DNA of 64,000 nt from the NCBI RefSeq assembly GCF_000376265.1, contig NZ_AQWU01000071.1, positions 1-64,000 of the forward strand, in the 5' to 3' direction. The notes beneath the pieces were generated by a model. That model was given only the letters and a program-made list of their open reading frames with translations. It was not told where the DNA came from and made no database searches. Numbering within the stretch: position 1 is the stretch's first letter; each line of letters starts with the position of its first letter. This DNA comes from Thermus igniterrae ATCC 700962. GTDB taxonomy: Bacteria; Deinococcota; Deinococci; Deinococcales; Thermaceae. The position numbers were made by a program, and so were the translations under genes. Positions 58,719 through 64,000 of this stretch are shown here, piece by piece.

Positions 58719-59714
58719 ATGGTGGACGTGCTGGTGGTGGGGGCGGGGCCGGTGGGGCTTTGCGCGGCCCTGTGGGCTAAGCGCCTCGGCCTTTCCCACC
58801 TGGTGCTGGAGCGGGGCACGGTGGCCGAGACGGTTTACCGCTTCCCCCGGGAGATGGTCTTCTTCTCCGAGGCCAGGAACCTGGAGATCGGGGGGCACCC
58901 CCTGGTCTCCCAGGGCCCCAAGCCCACCCGCCGCGAGGCCCTCCTCTACTACCAGAGGGTGGCCGAGCGGGAGGGGATCAACGTCCGCACCTACACCGAG
59001 GTGGTGGGGATTGCGGGGCAGGAGGGAGGCTTTGGGGTTCTGGCCCGAAGCCGCAAGGGGGAGGAGGTTTTTTCCGCCCGCTACGTGGTGGTGGCCACGG
59101 GCTACTTTGCTAACCCCAACCGCCTTGGGGTGCCGGGGGAGGAGCTTCCCCACGTCTTCCACCGCTATGAGGAGGCCGCTCCCTTCTTCGGGCGCAAGGT
59201 GGCGGTGGTGGGGGGGAGCAACTCCGCGGTGGAGGCGGCCTTGGACCTCTACCGGGGTGGGGCCCAGGTGGTTTTGGTGCACCGGGGGGCCCGGGTGCGG
59301 CCCAGCGTCAAGTACTGGCTCCTCCCCGACTTTGAGAACCGGGTAAAGGAGGGCCGGATAGGGGCGGTGATGGAGGCCAGGGTGAAGGCCATCACCCCGG
59401 AGGGGCTATGGCTTTCCCGCCCCGGGGGGGAGGAGTTTCTGGAGGTGGACTTCGTCCTGGTCCTCATCGGCTACCGGGCGGAGGACCGGCTTCTTAAGGA
59501 GGCGGGGGTGGCCTACGAGGGGGAGAAGCCCTGGCTTTCCCCGGAGTGGGAGACCTCGGTGCCGGGCCTCTTCGCCGTGGGCTCCTGCGCCTATGGCCCC
59601 GATACCCGCTCCGTCTTCATAGAAAACGGTCGGGAGCACGCGGAGAGGGCCCTCAGGGCCATTGCCCGCCGGCTTAACCCCTTGACACGGGAAGCACCCC
59701 CCCGCTATCCTTAG
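58719..59714 (+). CDS. ypdA: YpdA-type flavin disulfide reductase (putative bacillithiol disulfide reductase)
   Basis: This 331-aa protein has two dinucleotide-binding loops: FAD site VDVLVVGAGPVGLCAALWAKRLG at the N-terminus, and NADPH site KVAVVGGSNSAVEAALDLYRGG. It also has ARYVVVATGYFANPNRLGVPGEELP and the late PGLFAVGSCAYGPDT with the FAD-ribityl Asp. It lacks the CxxC of thioredoxin reductases, as do YpdA/Bdr proteins that reduce bacillithiol disulfide. Thermus is reported to make bacillithiol, which fits. The N-terminus is fixed by TAGACT seven bases upstream. Confidence 0.85.
   Translation: MVDVLVVGAGPVGLCAALWAKRLGLSHLVLERGTVAETVYRFPREMVFFSEARNLEIGGHPLVSQGPKPTRREALLYYQRVAEREGINVRTYTEVVGIAGQEGGFGVLARSRKGEEVFSARYVVVATGYFANPNRLGVPGEELPHVFHRYEEAAPFFGRKVAVVGGSNSAVEAALDLYRGGAQVVLVHRGARVRPSVKYWLLPDFENRVKEGRIGAVMEARVKAITPEGLWLSRPGGEEFLEVDFVLVLIGYRAEDRLLKEAGVAYEGEKPWLSPEWETSVPGLFAVGSCAYGPDTRSVFIENGREHAERALRAIARRLNPLTREAPPRYP
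59682..59711 (+). promoter_or_regulatory. Promoter of the ilv operon
   Basis: TTGACA (59682-59687) is a consensus -35, TATCCT (59706-59711) the -10, 18 bp apart. Transcription should begin near 59718, just before the leader peptide ATG. The -35 lies inside the ypdA 3' end. Confidence 0.65.
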
Positions 59715-59721
59715 CGGCAAG

Positions 59722-59790
59722 ATGCGTTCCGTGCTCGCCCTATCCCTAGCCCTGGTCCTAATCGTAGGGCCAGCGGGGGGTAGGGTGTAG
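59722..59790 (+). CDS. ilvL: Branched-chain amino acid leader peptide
   Basis: A 22-codon frame encodes a peptide with five Leu, four Val and one Ile, including the run Leu-Ala-Leu-Val-Leu-Ile-Val (residues 9-15). Three of five Leu codons are CTA, a codon seldom used in the surrounding genes, and GTA and ATC occur beside them, which would stall ribosomes when charged Leu, Val or Ile tRNA is low. It lies between a consensus promoter and an intrinsic terminator upstream of ilvB, the classical attenuator arrangement. No Shine-Dalgarno site is evident; it may start leaderless. Not an annotated family I can match by sequence. Confidence 0.7.
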   Translation: MRSVLALSLALVLIVGPAGGRV

Positions 59791-59841
59791 CGTTTTCGGC
59801 GCATCCATAAACCCCCCGGAAAACCCGGGGGGTTTCCGTTT
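59775..59841 (+). promoter_or_regulatory. ilv attenuator: antiterminator and terminator hairpins
   Basis: The terminator stem AAACCCCCCGG (59809-59819) pairs perfectly with CCGGGGGGTTT (59825-59835) and is followed by CCGTTT. GGGGGGT (59775-59781), inside the last leader codons, can pair with ACCCCCC (59811-59817) to form a competing antiterminator. CCCTA (59744-59748) and TAGGG (59781-59785) could pair as the 1:2 hairpin that frees the terminator. Confidence 0.65.
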
Positions 59842-59852
59842 AGGAGGGGGCC

Positions 59853-61541
59853 ATGAAGGGAGCAGAGGTGCTTTTGAAGGCGCTGGAGCGGGAGGGGGTG
59901 GAGGTGATCTTCGGCCATCCTGGCGGGGCCATCATGCCCACCTACGATGCCCTCTACGACAGCAAGATCCGCCACATCCTGGTGCGGCACGAGCAGGGCG
60001 GTGTCCACGCGGCCACCGCCTACGCCCGGGCCAGCGGCCGGGTGGGGGTGGTGATGGCCACCAGCGGCCCCGGGGCCCTGAACCTGGTCACGGGCCTGGC
60101 GGATGCCCTCATGGACTCCACCCCCGTGGTGGCCATCACCGGGAACGTGCCCCGGGCCCTGATCGGCACGGACGCCTTCCAGGAGGCGGACGTCACCGGG
60201 GTCACCATGCCCATCACCAAGCACAACTACCTGGTGCAGGACGTGAACGACCTGCCCCGGGTGGTGCGGGAGGCCTTCCACATCGCGGCCACCGGGAGGC
60301 CCGGCCCCGTGCTCATTGACATTCCCAAGGACGTGCAGCTTTCGGAGTTCACCGGGAGCTTTGAGGTGGAGCTGGACCTTCCCGGCTACAAGCCCACCCT
60401 GAAGGGCCATCCCAAGCAGATTGAGCGGGCCCTGGACGCCCTGGAGAAGGCGGAAAGGCCCATCCTCATGGTGGGAGGCGGGGCGCAACACGCCCACGGG
60501 GAGCTCCTGGCCTTTGCCGAGCGCACGGGGTTGCCCGTCATCACCACCCTCATGGGCCTGGGGGCCTTCCCCGGGAACCATCCCTTGTGGCTGGGCATGC
60601 CGGGCATGCACGGCACCGTGGCCGCCAACCGGGCCATCCACCATGCGGACGTCATCCTGGCCATCGGCCTGCGCTTTGACGACCGGGTCACGGGTAAGGT
60701 CTCCCGCTTTGCCCCCCACGCCCACACCATCATCCACGTGGACATTGACCCGGCGGAGATCGGCAAGGTGGTGCGCACCCACATCCCCATCGTGGGGGAC
60801 GCCCGCCAGGTCCTGCGGGAGATGCTCAAAGGGGCCAAGCCCCTGCGGCTGGCCACCTGGTGGCGGGAGCTGGAGGAGTGGCGCACCCGCTACCCCTTGC
60901 GCTGGAAGCCCCGGCCCCACCTGCAGAGCCAGGAGGTGATCCGCGCCTTCGCCGAGGCCACGGGAGGGCATGCCATCGTCACCACCGGGGTGGGGCAGCA
61001 CCAGATGTTCGCCGCCCAGTTCTTCCCCGTGACCCGGCCCCGGAGCTTCCTCACCAGCGGCGGCCTGGGCACCATGGGGGTGGGGTTGCCCTTCGCCATC
61101 GGGGCCAAGGTGGCCCGGCCGGAGGAGCTGGTCATTGACTTTGACGGGGACGGCTCCTTCCAGATGACCCTGCAGGAGCTGGCCACCCTGGTGAAGTACA
61201 AGCTGGACGTGAAGGTGGTGGTCCTCAACAACGGCTACCTGGGCATGGTGCGGCAGTGGCAGGACCTCTTCCACGCCAAGCGCTACTCCGAGGTCTACCT
61301 GGCGGACTCCAACCCCGATTTCGCCCGGCTGGCCGAGGCCTACGGCATCCGGGGGGTGAAGGTGGAGCGCAAGGAGGACCTGATGAAGGGGGTGGAGGCG
61401 GTCCTTTCCGCGGACGGCCCGGTGGTGGCGGAGTTTAAGGTGTACCACGAGGAGGGGGTCTTCCCCATGATTCCCGCCGGAGGGGCGGCGGAGGACATGA
61501 TCATTGAACACCCTGCGGAAAAGGAGGAGGTGGAGGCGTGA
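59853..61541 (+). CDS. ilvB: Acetolactate synthase, large subunit
   Basis: This 562-aa ThDP enzyme shows GAEVLLKALEREGVEVIFGHPGG, the ThDP glutamate in RHEQGG, GPGALNLVTGLADA, FQEADVTGVTMPITKHNYLV, the FAD/central domain with GLRFDDRVTG, and the ThDP/Mg motif DGDGSFQMTLQELATLVKYKLDVKVVVLNN. It makes acetolactate and acetohydroxybutyrate in valine, leucine and isoleucine synthesis. AGGAGGGGG precedes the ATG, just past the attenuator. ilvN overlaps by 4 nt. Confidence 0.97.
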   Translation: MKGAEVLLKALEREGVEVIFGHPGGAIMPTYDALYDSKIRHILVRHEQGGVHAATAYARASGRVGVVMATSGPGALNLVTGLADALMDSTPVVAITGNVPRALIGTDAFQEADVTGVTMPITKHNYLVQDVNDLPRVVREAFHIAATGRPGPVLIDIPKDVQLSEFTGSFEVELDLPGYKPTLKGHPKQIERALDALEKAERPILMVGGGAQHAHGELLAFAERTGLPVITTLMGLGAFPGNHPLWLGMPGMHGTVAANRAIHHADVILAIGLRFDDRVTGKVSRFAPHAHTIIHVDIDPAEIGKVVRTHIPIVGDARQVLREMLKGAKPLRLATWWRELEEWRTRYPLRWKPRPHLQSQEVIRAFAEATGGHAIVTTGVGQHQMFAAQFFPVTRPRSFLTSGGLGTMGVGLPFAIGAKVARPEELVIDFDGDGSFQMTLQELATLVKYKLDVKVVVLNNGYLGMVRQWQDLFHAKRYSEVYLADSNPDFARLAEAYGIRGVKVERKEDLMKGVEAVLSADGPVVAEFKVYHEEGVFPMIPAGGAAEDMIIEHPAEKEEVEA

Positions 61542-62050
61542 GGCACGTGATCTCCGTGCTGGTGCAGGACCATCCCCGGGTGCTGAACCGCATCACCAGC
61601 CTGTTTGCCCGGAGGGGTTTCAACCTGGAGAGCCTGGCGGTGGGCACCACCCACGTGCCGGGGCTTTCCCGCATCAGCCTGGTGGTCTCCGGGGACGACC
61701 ACACCCTGGAGCAGGTGGAGAAGCAGCTCAACCGGCTCATTGAGGTCCTGAAGGTCACGGACCACTCCGAGCCCCACGTGGAGCGGGAGCTTTGCCTGGT
61801 GAAGGTGCACGTGGCCGGGGTGGAGGAGCGCCTGGCCATCAAGGACATCCAGGAGGCCTTCCGGGCCAGGGTGGTGGACGTGGCCCAGAAGAGCCTGATC
61901 CTGGAGCTCACCGGGGATTCGGGGAAGGTGGGTTCCTTCATTGAGGCCCTGAGGCCTTTTGGGATCCTCGAGGTCATGCGCACCGGGGCCGTGGCCATGA
62001 GCCGGGGCGAGAGGACCCTTAAGGTCAGGGAAAAACGGGAGGCGGTATGA
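61538..62050 (+). CDS. ilvN: Acetolactate synthase, small regulatory subunit
   Basis: This 170-aa protein has an N-terminal ACT domain ([32 protein letters not shown], with the valine-binding region) and a C-terminal ACT-like domain ([46 protein letters not shown]). It confers valine feedback and activates IlvB. GTG start overlaps the ilvB stop. Confidence 0.96.
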
Positions 62051-63060
62051 AGATCTACTACGAGCACGATGCGGACCTAGGCTTCATCCTCGGCAAGAAG
62101 GTAGCGGTCTTGGGCTTCGGCTCCCAGGGGCACGCCCACGCCCTGAACCTGAAGGAGTCGGGGGTGGACGTGCGGGTAGGCCTGAGGCCCGGTTCCAAGA
62201 GCTTCGCCAAGGCGGAGGCGGCGGGGCTCCGCGTGCTTTCCGTGGCCGAGGCGGTGCGGGAGGCGGACGTGGTCATGGTCCTTCTCCCCGACGAGGCCCA
62301 GGGGCGGGTCTACCGGGAGGAGATTGAGCCCAACCTGAGGGAAGGGGCGGCTTTGGCCTTCGCCCACGGCTTCAACATCCACTTCGGCCAGATCAAGCCC
62401 AGGCGGGACCTGGACGTCTGGATGGTGGCCCCCAAGGGGCCCGGCCACCTGGTCCGGAGCGAGTACCAAAGGGGGAGCGGGGTGCCCGCCCTGGTGGCGG
62501 TGCACCAGGACGCCTCGGGGAGCGCCTTCCCCACCGCCTTGGCCTACGCCAAGGCCATCGGGGCTGCCCGGGCCGGGGTCATCGCCACCACCTTCAAGGA
62601 CGAGACGGAAACCGACCTCTTCGGGGAGCAGGCGGTGCTCTGCGGGGGGCTTACCCGGCTCATCCAGGCGGGGTTTGAGACCCTGGTGGAGGCGGGGTAC
62701 CCGCCGGAGATGGCCTACTTTGAAACCGTGCACGAGGTGAAGCTCATCGTGGACCTCATCTACGAGGCGGGCTTCGCCGGGATGCGCTACTCCATCTCCA
62801 ACACCGCCGAGTACGGGGACTACACCCGGGGCGAGGTGGCGGTGCCGGTGGAGGAGACCAAGCGGCGCATGCGGGAAATCCTCCGGCAGATCCAGACCGG
62901 GGAGTTCGCCCGGGAATGGATGCTGGAGAACCAGGTGGGCCAGCCCGTCCTCGAGGCCAACCGCAAGCGCTGGAAGGCCCATCCCATTGAGGAGGTGGGG
63001 GCGAGGCTTCGGGCCATGATGCCCTTCCTCAGGGCCAGGGTATTGGAGGAAGTCGGGTAA
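62047..63060 (+). CDS. ilvC: Ketol-acid reductoisomerase, class I
   Basis: This 337-aa enzyme has [38 protein letters not shown] (NADPH loop), [39 protein letters not shown], and the knotted C-terminal domain with [18 protein letters not shown] and SNTAEYGD carrying metal ligands. It isomerises and reduces acetolactate. ATGA overlap with ilvN. Length is class I. Confidence 0.98.
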
Positions 63061-63105: not shown

Positions 63106-64000
63106 ATGGAGCGGCACATCCGAATCTTTGACACCACGCTTAGGGACGGCGAGCAGAGCCCAGGGGTGGCGCTTTCCTTGGACCAGAAGCTGGAAATCGC
63201 CCATGCCCTGGCCCGGCTCAACGTGGACATCATTGAGGCGGGCTTTCCCGTATCCGGGCCTTTGGAGTTTGAGGCGGTGCGGCGCATCGCCACGGAGGTA
63301 AAGGGCCCCATCATCGCCGCCTTGGCCCGCACCCACACCCTGGACATTGACCAGGCGGCCAAGGCCTTGGAGAAGGCGGAAAAGCCAAGGATTCACGTCT
63401 TCACCTCCGCCTCCAAGATCCACCTGGAGTACATGCTGAAGAAGACGGAGGAGGAGGTCTTGGAGATGGCGGACCAAATGGTCCGCTACGCCCGCCGCTA
63501 CGTGGACGACGTGGAGTTTTCCGCCCAGGACGTGATGCGGGCGGACTGGGACTTCGTGAAGCGGCTTTACGAGGTGGCCATAGAGGCGGGGGCCACCACC
63601 ATCAACATCCCCGACACCACGGGCTACGGCACGCCTGGGGAGTACGGGGCCCTCATCCGCCGCATCCGCGACGAGGTGGTGCGGGGGCGGGATGTCATCA
63701 TCTCCACCCACACCCACGACGACCTGGGCCTCGCCGTGGCCAACGCCCTGGCCGGCGTGGAGAACGGGGCGGGGCAGGTGGAGTGCACCATCAACGGCAT
63801 TGGGGAGCGGGCGGGGAACACCTCCTTGGAGGAGGTGGTCATGGCGCTCTACGTGCGCCGGGACTGGTACAAGGCCTACACCCAGATCAACACCCGGGAG
63901 ATCTACCGGGTTTCCCGCCTGGTGGAGCGCTACACGGGGATGCCCGTCCCCCCCAACAAGGCCATCGTGGGGGACAACGCCTTCGCCCACGAGTCCGGCA
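63106..64000 (+). CDS. leuA: 2-isopropylmalate synthase (N-terminal part, cut by window end)
   Basis: The visible 298 residues are the catalytic TIM barrel of the DRE-TIM family: [39 protein letters not shown]-like region, [11 protein letters not shown]-type [68 protein letters not shown]. The Cys-less C-terminal allosteric domain lies outside the window. Long 2-isopropylmalate synthase fits the ilv context better than homocitrate or citramalate synthase. GGGGGGAAC precedes the ATG. Confidence 0.92.

Follow-up and report, generated by a model that had tools for sequence, protein, structure and literature searches.

The window in our study was a stretch of 64,000 nucleotides from the 2.2 Mb genome of Thermus igniterrae ATCC 700962, and all of the features described here lie on its + strand. 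The fumarase encoded in the window was closest to PDB entry 1vdk (E = 3e-273), the enzyme of Thermus thermophilus. The operon begins with ilvB, encoding the acetolactate synthase large subunit (59853–61541, TIGR00118), preceded by the Shine-Dalgarno sequence AGGAGG (59842–59847). It is followed by ilvN, encoding the acetolactate synthase small subunit (61538–62050, TIGR00119), ilvC, encoding ketol-acid reductoisomerase (62047–63060, TIGR00465), and leuA, encoding 2-isopropylmalate synthase (63106–64000, running beyond the window to 64662, TIGR00973). The gap between ilvC and leuA was 45 nucleotides. A citramalate synthase gene (TIGR00977) begins at 65202, 540 nucleotides after leuA (L091:107-3783), which places an extra isoleucine route nearby.

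Upstream of ilvB, the gene of a YpdA-type oxidoreductase (ypdA-like) ends at 59714. A sigma-70-type promoter, TTGACA-18-TATCCT, was found at 59682–59711, with the -35 hexamer at 59682–59687 and the -10 hexamer at 59706–59711. It has a spacer of 18 nucleotides and matched the consensus at 10 of 12 positions, against 0.0 equivalent sites in shuffled sequence, in agreement with the consensus promoter of the first-pass annotation. The promoter sits within the final codons of the ypdA-like gene (59682–59714), and its -10 hexamer abuts the stop codon of that gene. The distance from the -35 hexamer to the leader start was 39–40 nucleotides in every Thermaceae locus sampled. From the end of the -10 hexamer to the leader AUG there were 10 nucleotides in Thermus and about 8 in the family f5. 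The order-wide distance of 36–41 nucleotides from promoter to start, taken with standard promoter geometry, points to a 5' UTR of 0–4 nucleotides, and in the window it would be about 3 nucleotides (AAG, 59719–59721). By this geometry, the ilv leader mRNA of Thermus would be essentially leaderless. The leader of C. glutamicum ilvBNC provides a precedent, where transcription starts one nucleotide 5' of the leader start codon (PMC11857589).

The leader peptide ORF MRSVLALSLALVLIVGPAGGRV (59722–59790) contained 22 codons and a stop codon. Its control codons were CTA7, CTA9, CTG11, GTC12, CTA13, ATC14, and GTA15, and codons 4–15 contained nine Leu, Val or Ile codons (P = 4e-4). CTA made up 2.0% of the Leu codons across the 42 predicted genes of the window, and against this usage the presence of at least three CTA among the five Leu codons of the leader has P = 8e-5. 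Both the 22-codon leader rich in Leu, Val and Ile and the three rare CTA codons, as claimed at first pass, were found at the locus, which has a short translatable ORF with control codons for the product of the operon. In the leaders of Thermaceae, CTA accounted for 147 of 236 Leu codons against 2% in the window genes, and GTA for 74 of 176 Val codons against 3.8%. An alignment across Thermus had been proposed as a check of the leader; in all 26 usable genomes the 22-codon frame was intact, CTA7, CTA9, CTA13, ATC14, GTA15 and the UAG stop codon were invariant, and both the terminator and the antiterminator pairings were kept, with codons 3, 4, and 6 freely variable. Meiothermus and its neighbours contained a different leader peptide (e.g., MLLPSSLILTVVGLVITGPRGDLV), with CTA, GTA, and ATT codons retained. 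As CTA is retained in Meiothermus although strand 2 there lacks the complementary UAGGG, the rare codon is not explained by pairing alone.

The wider survey placed ilvB in 50 genomes at the family level and looked for it in 111 genomes across the order, and the upstream DNA was examined at 90 loci. The loci sampled belong to five families of one order; searches at class and phylum level yielded the same order only, without Deinococcus. In 88 of the 90 loci, spread over the five families, a leader ORF was found that begins 36–41 nucleotides downstream of the first -35 base. The exceptions were L046, which had no upstream sequence, and L050, a poor assembly. L050 comes from Thermus, with 65% completeness and 620 contigs, and has single-base deletions in the leader and an ilvB that is also broken, most likely through sequencing or assembly error. 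The design of leader, antiterminator and terminator reached Meiothermus and four other families, and the attenuator is apparently an ancient trait of the order of Thermus. The f5 genera L070 and L072–L076 contained leaders poorer in Leu, Val, and Ile, so that the attenuator there may be decaying or altered; most of these leaders retained complementarity to the start codon just 3' of the leader stop, e.g., GTGAACCG:CGGTTCAC. The leader candidate of L089 (family f2), MWWTVGLLGSLRGIRR, contains Trp and is poor in branched-chain amino acids (BCAA), and a GGGTCTG in it matches CAGACC 3' of the stop codon. The candidate may belong to another kind of regulator, or its start may be wrongly assigned.

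The putative terminator hairpin was found at 59809–59835, with a short U-rich tail to about 59841. Its stem, formed by AAACCCCCCGG (59809–59819) and CCGGGGGGTTT (59825–59835) around the loop AAAAC, was a perfect, GC-rich and conserved stem of 11 bp, with an energy of -21.5 kcal/mol. The perfect stem just 5' of ilvB that the first reading of the sequence had described was thus present, but the U-tract 3' of it is weak in Thermus (TTTCCGTTT), because of which a generic consensus terminator scan missed the hairpin; Meiothermus contained T-runs. The 139-nucleotide leader RNA folded at -76.3 kcal/mol, with z = -4.6 against shuffled sequence.

An antiterminator pair GGGGGGT/ACCCCCC had also been claimed. 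The pair is real, but it is only half of an extended antiterminator of 14 bp, P2 (59774–59818), which is about twice the length first given. In P2, 59774–59781 pairs with 59811–59818, and the distal half is formed by GGGTGT (59783–59788) with GCATCC (59801–59806). A separate hairpin GGTGT-GCATC was rejected as a candidate, as it is this distal half. The energy of P2 was -25.0 kcal/mol, and its own strands paired better than dinucleotide-shuffled ones (p = 0.015). P2 and the terminator exclude each other. Pairing of own strands was compared with pairing of strands swapped between genera, using one sequence per genus from 26 genera in five draws. The own pairing was found to be -23.5 to -24.0 kcal/mol and the swapped pairing -19.4 to -19.8 kcal/mol, with p = 5e-5, the smallest possible value, in all five draws. 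Clear compensation between lineages was seen, for example, in GAGGGTCGC:GCGACCCTC versus GGGGGTCGC:GCGACCCCC. The excess of own over swapped pairing was also significant within f4 and within f2 and f3 together. Within the non-Thermus Thermaceae there was no such excess (p = 0.95), because the near-identical C and G runs are interchangeable. A protector (anti-antiterminator) hairpin, P1, was found at 59733–59791, where leader codons 5–9 pair with the GGGGGGUAGGGUG segment. P1 encloses an apical hairpin that spans the control codons, and in folding it forms in the leader alone.

A further helix, P0 (59721–59805), pairs the start codon region GATGCGTT (59721–59728) with GGCGCATC (59798–59805), a segment that doubles as half of the antiterminator. 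When 47 Thermaceae sequences were folded with RNAalifold, the program, unprompted, joined the leader start (GATGC) to the GCATC 5' of the terminator. P0 was GATGCGC:GCGCATC in Thermus and GATGCCGC:GCGGCATC in the genus g14. In g2 it was GGTG:CACC, matching the GTG start codon there, and the variants in f5 were GTGAACCG:CGGTTCAC and TGAGCTG:CGGCTCA. Across 28 genera the own strands of P0 paired better than swapped strands (p = 5e-5 to 2e-4, permutation), as they did within f4 (p = 0.0015), non-Thermus Thermaceae (p = 0.007) and f5 (p = 0.03). When only the eight genera of f1 and f4 were used, p varied between 0.007 and 0.21 with the draw. Within Thermus no excess was found (p = 0.84), because P0 hardly varies there. 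P0 was rejected as a universal element, as no significant helix was found in L029 or in several genera of f5 and f3. P0 was spotted by eye ahead of the testing and the permutations leave some shared ancestry, for which reason we grade the start-codon helix as likely, rather than proven, in Thermus and g14.

The effect of ribosome position was studied in a folding model, in which the transcript was cut at the end of the 5' arm of the terminator and a ribosome footprint was imposed. The model leaves out kinetics, and the codon at which it switches depends on the footprint that was chosen, of which only the downstream edge was varied. Over the 26 Thermus sequences, the mean predicted probability of the antiterminator was 0.83–0.88 with the A-site at codons 3–14, whereas it was 0.04–0.06 at codons 15–23 and 0.05 without a ribosome. 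The leader of the window behaved in the same way at 65 °C. In this model, the outcome is set by the position of the ribosome on the leader. In other families the modelled ON window likewise stopped close to where the BCAA run ends, and over 26 genera 97 of 118 dense Leu, Val, and Ile codons were inside the predicted ON window. The mean P(ON) in these genera was 0.63 for BCAA codons and 0.51 for other codons, a modest difference, since in the model every early stall leads to antitermination. Masking the 5' strand of P1 switched the model ON. Masking the P0 strand alone raised the P(ON) of the empty leader from about 0.0–0.2 to 0.3–0.9 in most of the Thermus and g14 cases tried; L024 and L028 were unaffected. 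The predicted default of the empty leader was OFF in Thermus and mixed in Meiothermus (P 0.0–0.8). At the f3 loci L086–L088 and L090, the empty leader was predicted to antiterminate (P 0.75–1.0), opposite to Thermus, and these leaders appear to be without an effective protector hairpin.

We conclude that the locus is, with high probability, a ribosome-mediated transcription attenuator of the ilvB-ilvN-ilvC-leuA operon. This reading draws on the parts present in the sequence, their conservation, the covariation of the pairings and the predicted folding; for the Thermus leader we infer the stalling, the termination, the start site and the response to amino acids. The first-pass annotation had assigned the attenuator to ilvBNC; its attenuator reading is supported, but the operon also includes leuA, and this explains the Leu bias of the leader. 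In the proposed mechanism, RNA polymerase would initiate about 3 nucleotides 5' of the leader AUG, and the ribosome would load directly on the near-5'-terminal start codon. When charged Leu, Val or Ile tRNA is scarce, the ribosome would stall in codons 7–14 and cover the 5' strand of P1. The GGGGGGUAGGGUGU strand would then be free to pair with GCAUCC...ACCCCCCG, forming P2, and transcription would continue into ilvB. When the amino acids are ample, the ribosome would reach codon 15 or further and block P2, so that the CCCCCC strand would pair with the downstream GGGGGG and transcription would end near 59835–59841. Without a ribosome, P1 and P0 (the start codon with GGCGCATC) would keep both antiterminator strands apart, making the default state off.

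The position of the hairpin between two genes, the overlap of the promoter with the 3' end of the ypdA-like gene, and the commonness of perfect intergenic hairpins would also suit a hairpin that acts only as a constitutive terminator, insulating ilvB from this upstream gene, with the short ORF being incidental. However, the promoter lies 5' of the hairpin, so an insulator would cut its own transcripts, and the leader frame, the rare codons, the promoter spacing, and an antiterminator covarying with the terminator strand were kept across five families. We consider the insulator very unlikely. Control of the hairpin by a ligand-binding riboswitch, a T-box or a protein-binding leader, without reading of leader translation, is likewise very unlikely. 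In some Firmicutes, ilvB is controlled by a ppGpp riboswitch (PMC10272879), and the Thermus leader is structured, as its z of -4.6 indicates, but none of 4227 Rfam families reached the gathering threshold anywhere in the window, and a riboswitch or other Rfam family was rejected. Moreover, what is most conserved in the leader is a frame that can be translated and contains rare BCAA codons, a feature that an aptamer could do without.

The leader could also be mainly a translation-dependent on/off gate, which responds to the overall capacity of ribosomes or of initiation and has little amino acid specificity. The model antiterminates for any stall at codons 3–14, BCAA or not, and P0 covers the leader start codon. 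In Streptomyces coelicolor ilvB, regulation was unaffected when the candidate regulatory codons were replaced (PMC1262725), so that a leader of similar appearance does not necessarily act in the way proposed here. Against such a gate, CTA, ATC, and GTA were strongly enriched and invariant in the leader, and across genera most of the BCAA codons fell within the predicted ON window; we give the gate a small chance of being correct. Within the preferred reading of an amino acid-responsive attenuator, we tentatively suggest that the leaderless start codon is itself a part of the switch, with GGCGCATC pairing either with the start codon (OFF) or with the region of the leader stop codon (ON). The P0 OFF state might then block new ribosomes and withhold half of the antiterminator. 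We hold this start-codon switch as a whole somewhat less probable than not.

The attenuators of ilv, leu, and trp in the enteric bacteria Escherichia coli and Salmonella contain control codons in the leader and work by protector, antiterminator and terminator, and the Thermus leader has the same four-segment logic. The enteric leaders contain a 5' UTR with a ribosome-binding site, whereas the Thermus start codon would lie within about 4 nucleotides of the 5' end, and the U-tract of the Thermus terminator is weak, unlike that of the enteric attenuators. A trp attenuator was reportedly described early in T. thermophilus. The C. glutamicum ilvBNC leader (ilvB-II motif) shares with Thermus the start of the operon, a short BCAA-rich leader and the terminator, antiterminator, and anti-antiterminator, and its initiation site is covered by the H1 hairpin (PMC11857589; PMC10272879), as that of Thermus would be by the P0 lock. 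However, H1 is a local hairpin, whereas the Thermus lock uses a segment 3' of the leader stop that is also half of the antiterminator. C. glutamicum belongs to a different phylum, and the likeness drawn here is one of design. In Mycobacterium tuberculosis, the ilvB1 attenuator has a uORF with LVVI control codons, a premature transcript and a BCAA-responsive terminator before ilvB1NC (PMC13236596). The uORF with BCAA control codons is shared with Thermus, as is a terminator, putative in Thermus, but the ilvB1 leader is 166 nucleotides long and backed by SEnd-seq and reporters, whereas the Thermus case comes from sequence analysis. A start-codon helix such as P0 is not mentioned in the passages on ilvB1 that were compared. 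The ilvB-OMG and Leptospira ilvB RNA motifs are likewise structured ilvB leaders, which were reinterpreted as uORF attenuators (PMC10272879); no Rfam model matched the window at gathering score.

In the open-access literature, no earlier description of this leader in Thermus or Deinococcota was found. The mechanism is classical, and the start-codon helix would be a probable twist on it. Our study extends ribosome-mediated BCAA attenuation, described for other phyla, to the Thermus lineage, and provides a compact, thermophilic and, by its promoter geometry, leaderless attenuator. The RNA polymerase and ribosomes of Thermus are standard structural models, and therefore their coupling could be studied directly on a natural leaderless leader. 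If the start-codon switch is true, the attenuator would sense leaderless initiation besides tRNA charging, and lineages would differ in the default of the empty leader, which would be OFF in Thermus and ON in f3. The start-codon helix makes the regulation of leaderless initiation testable.
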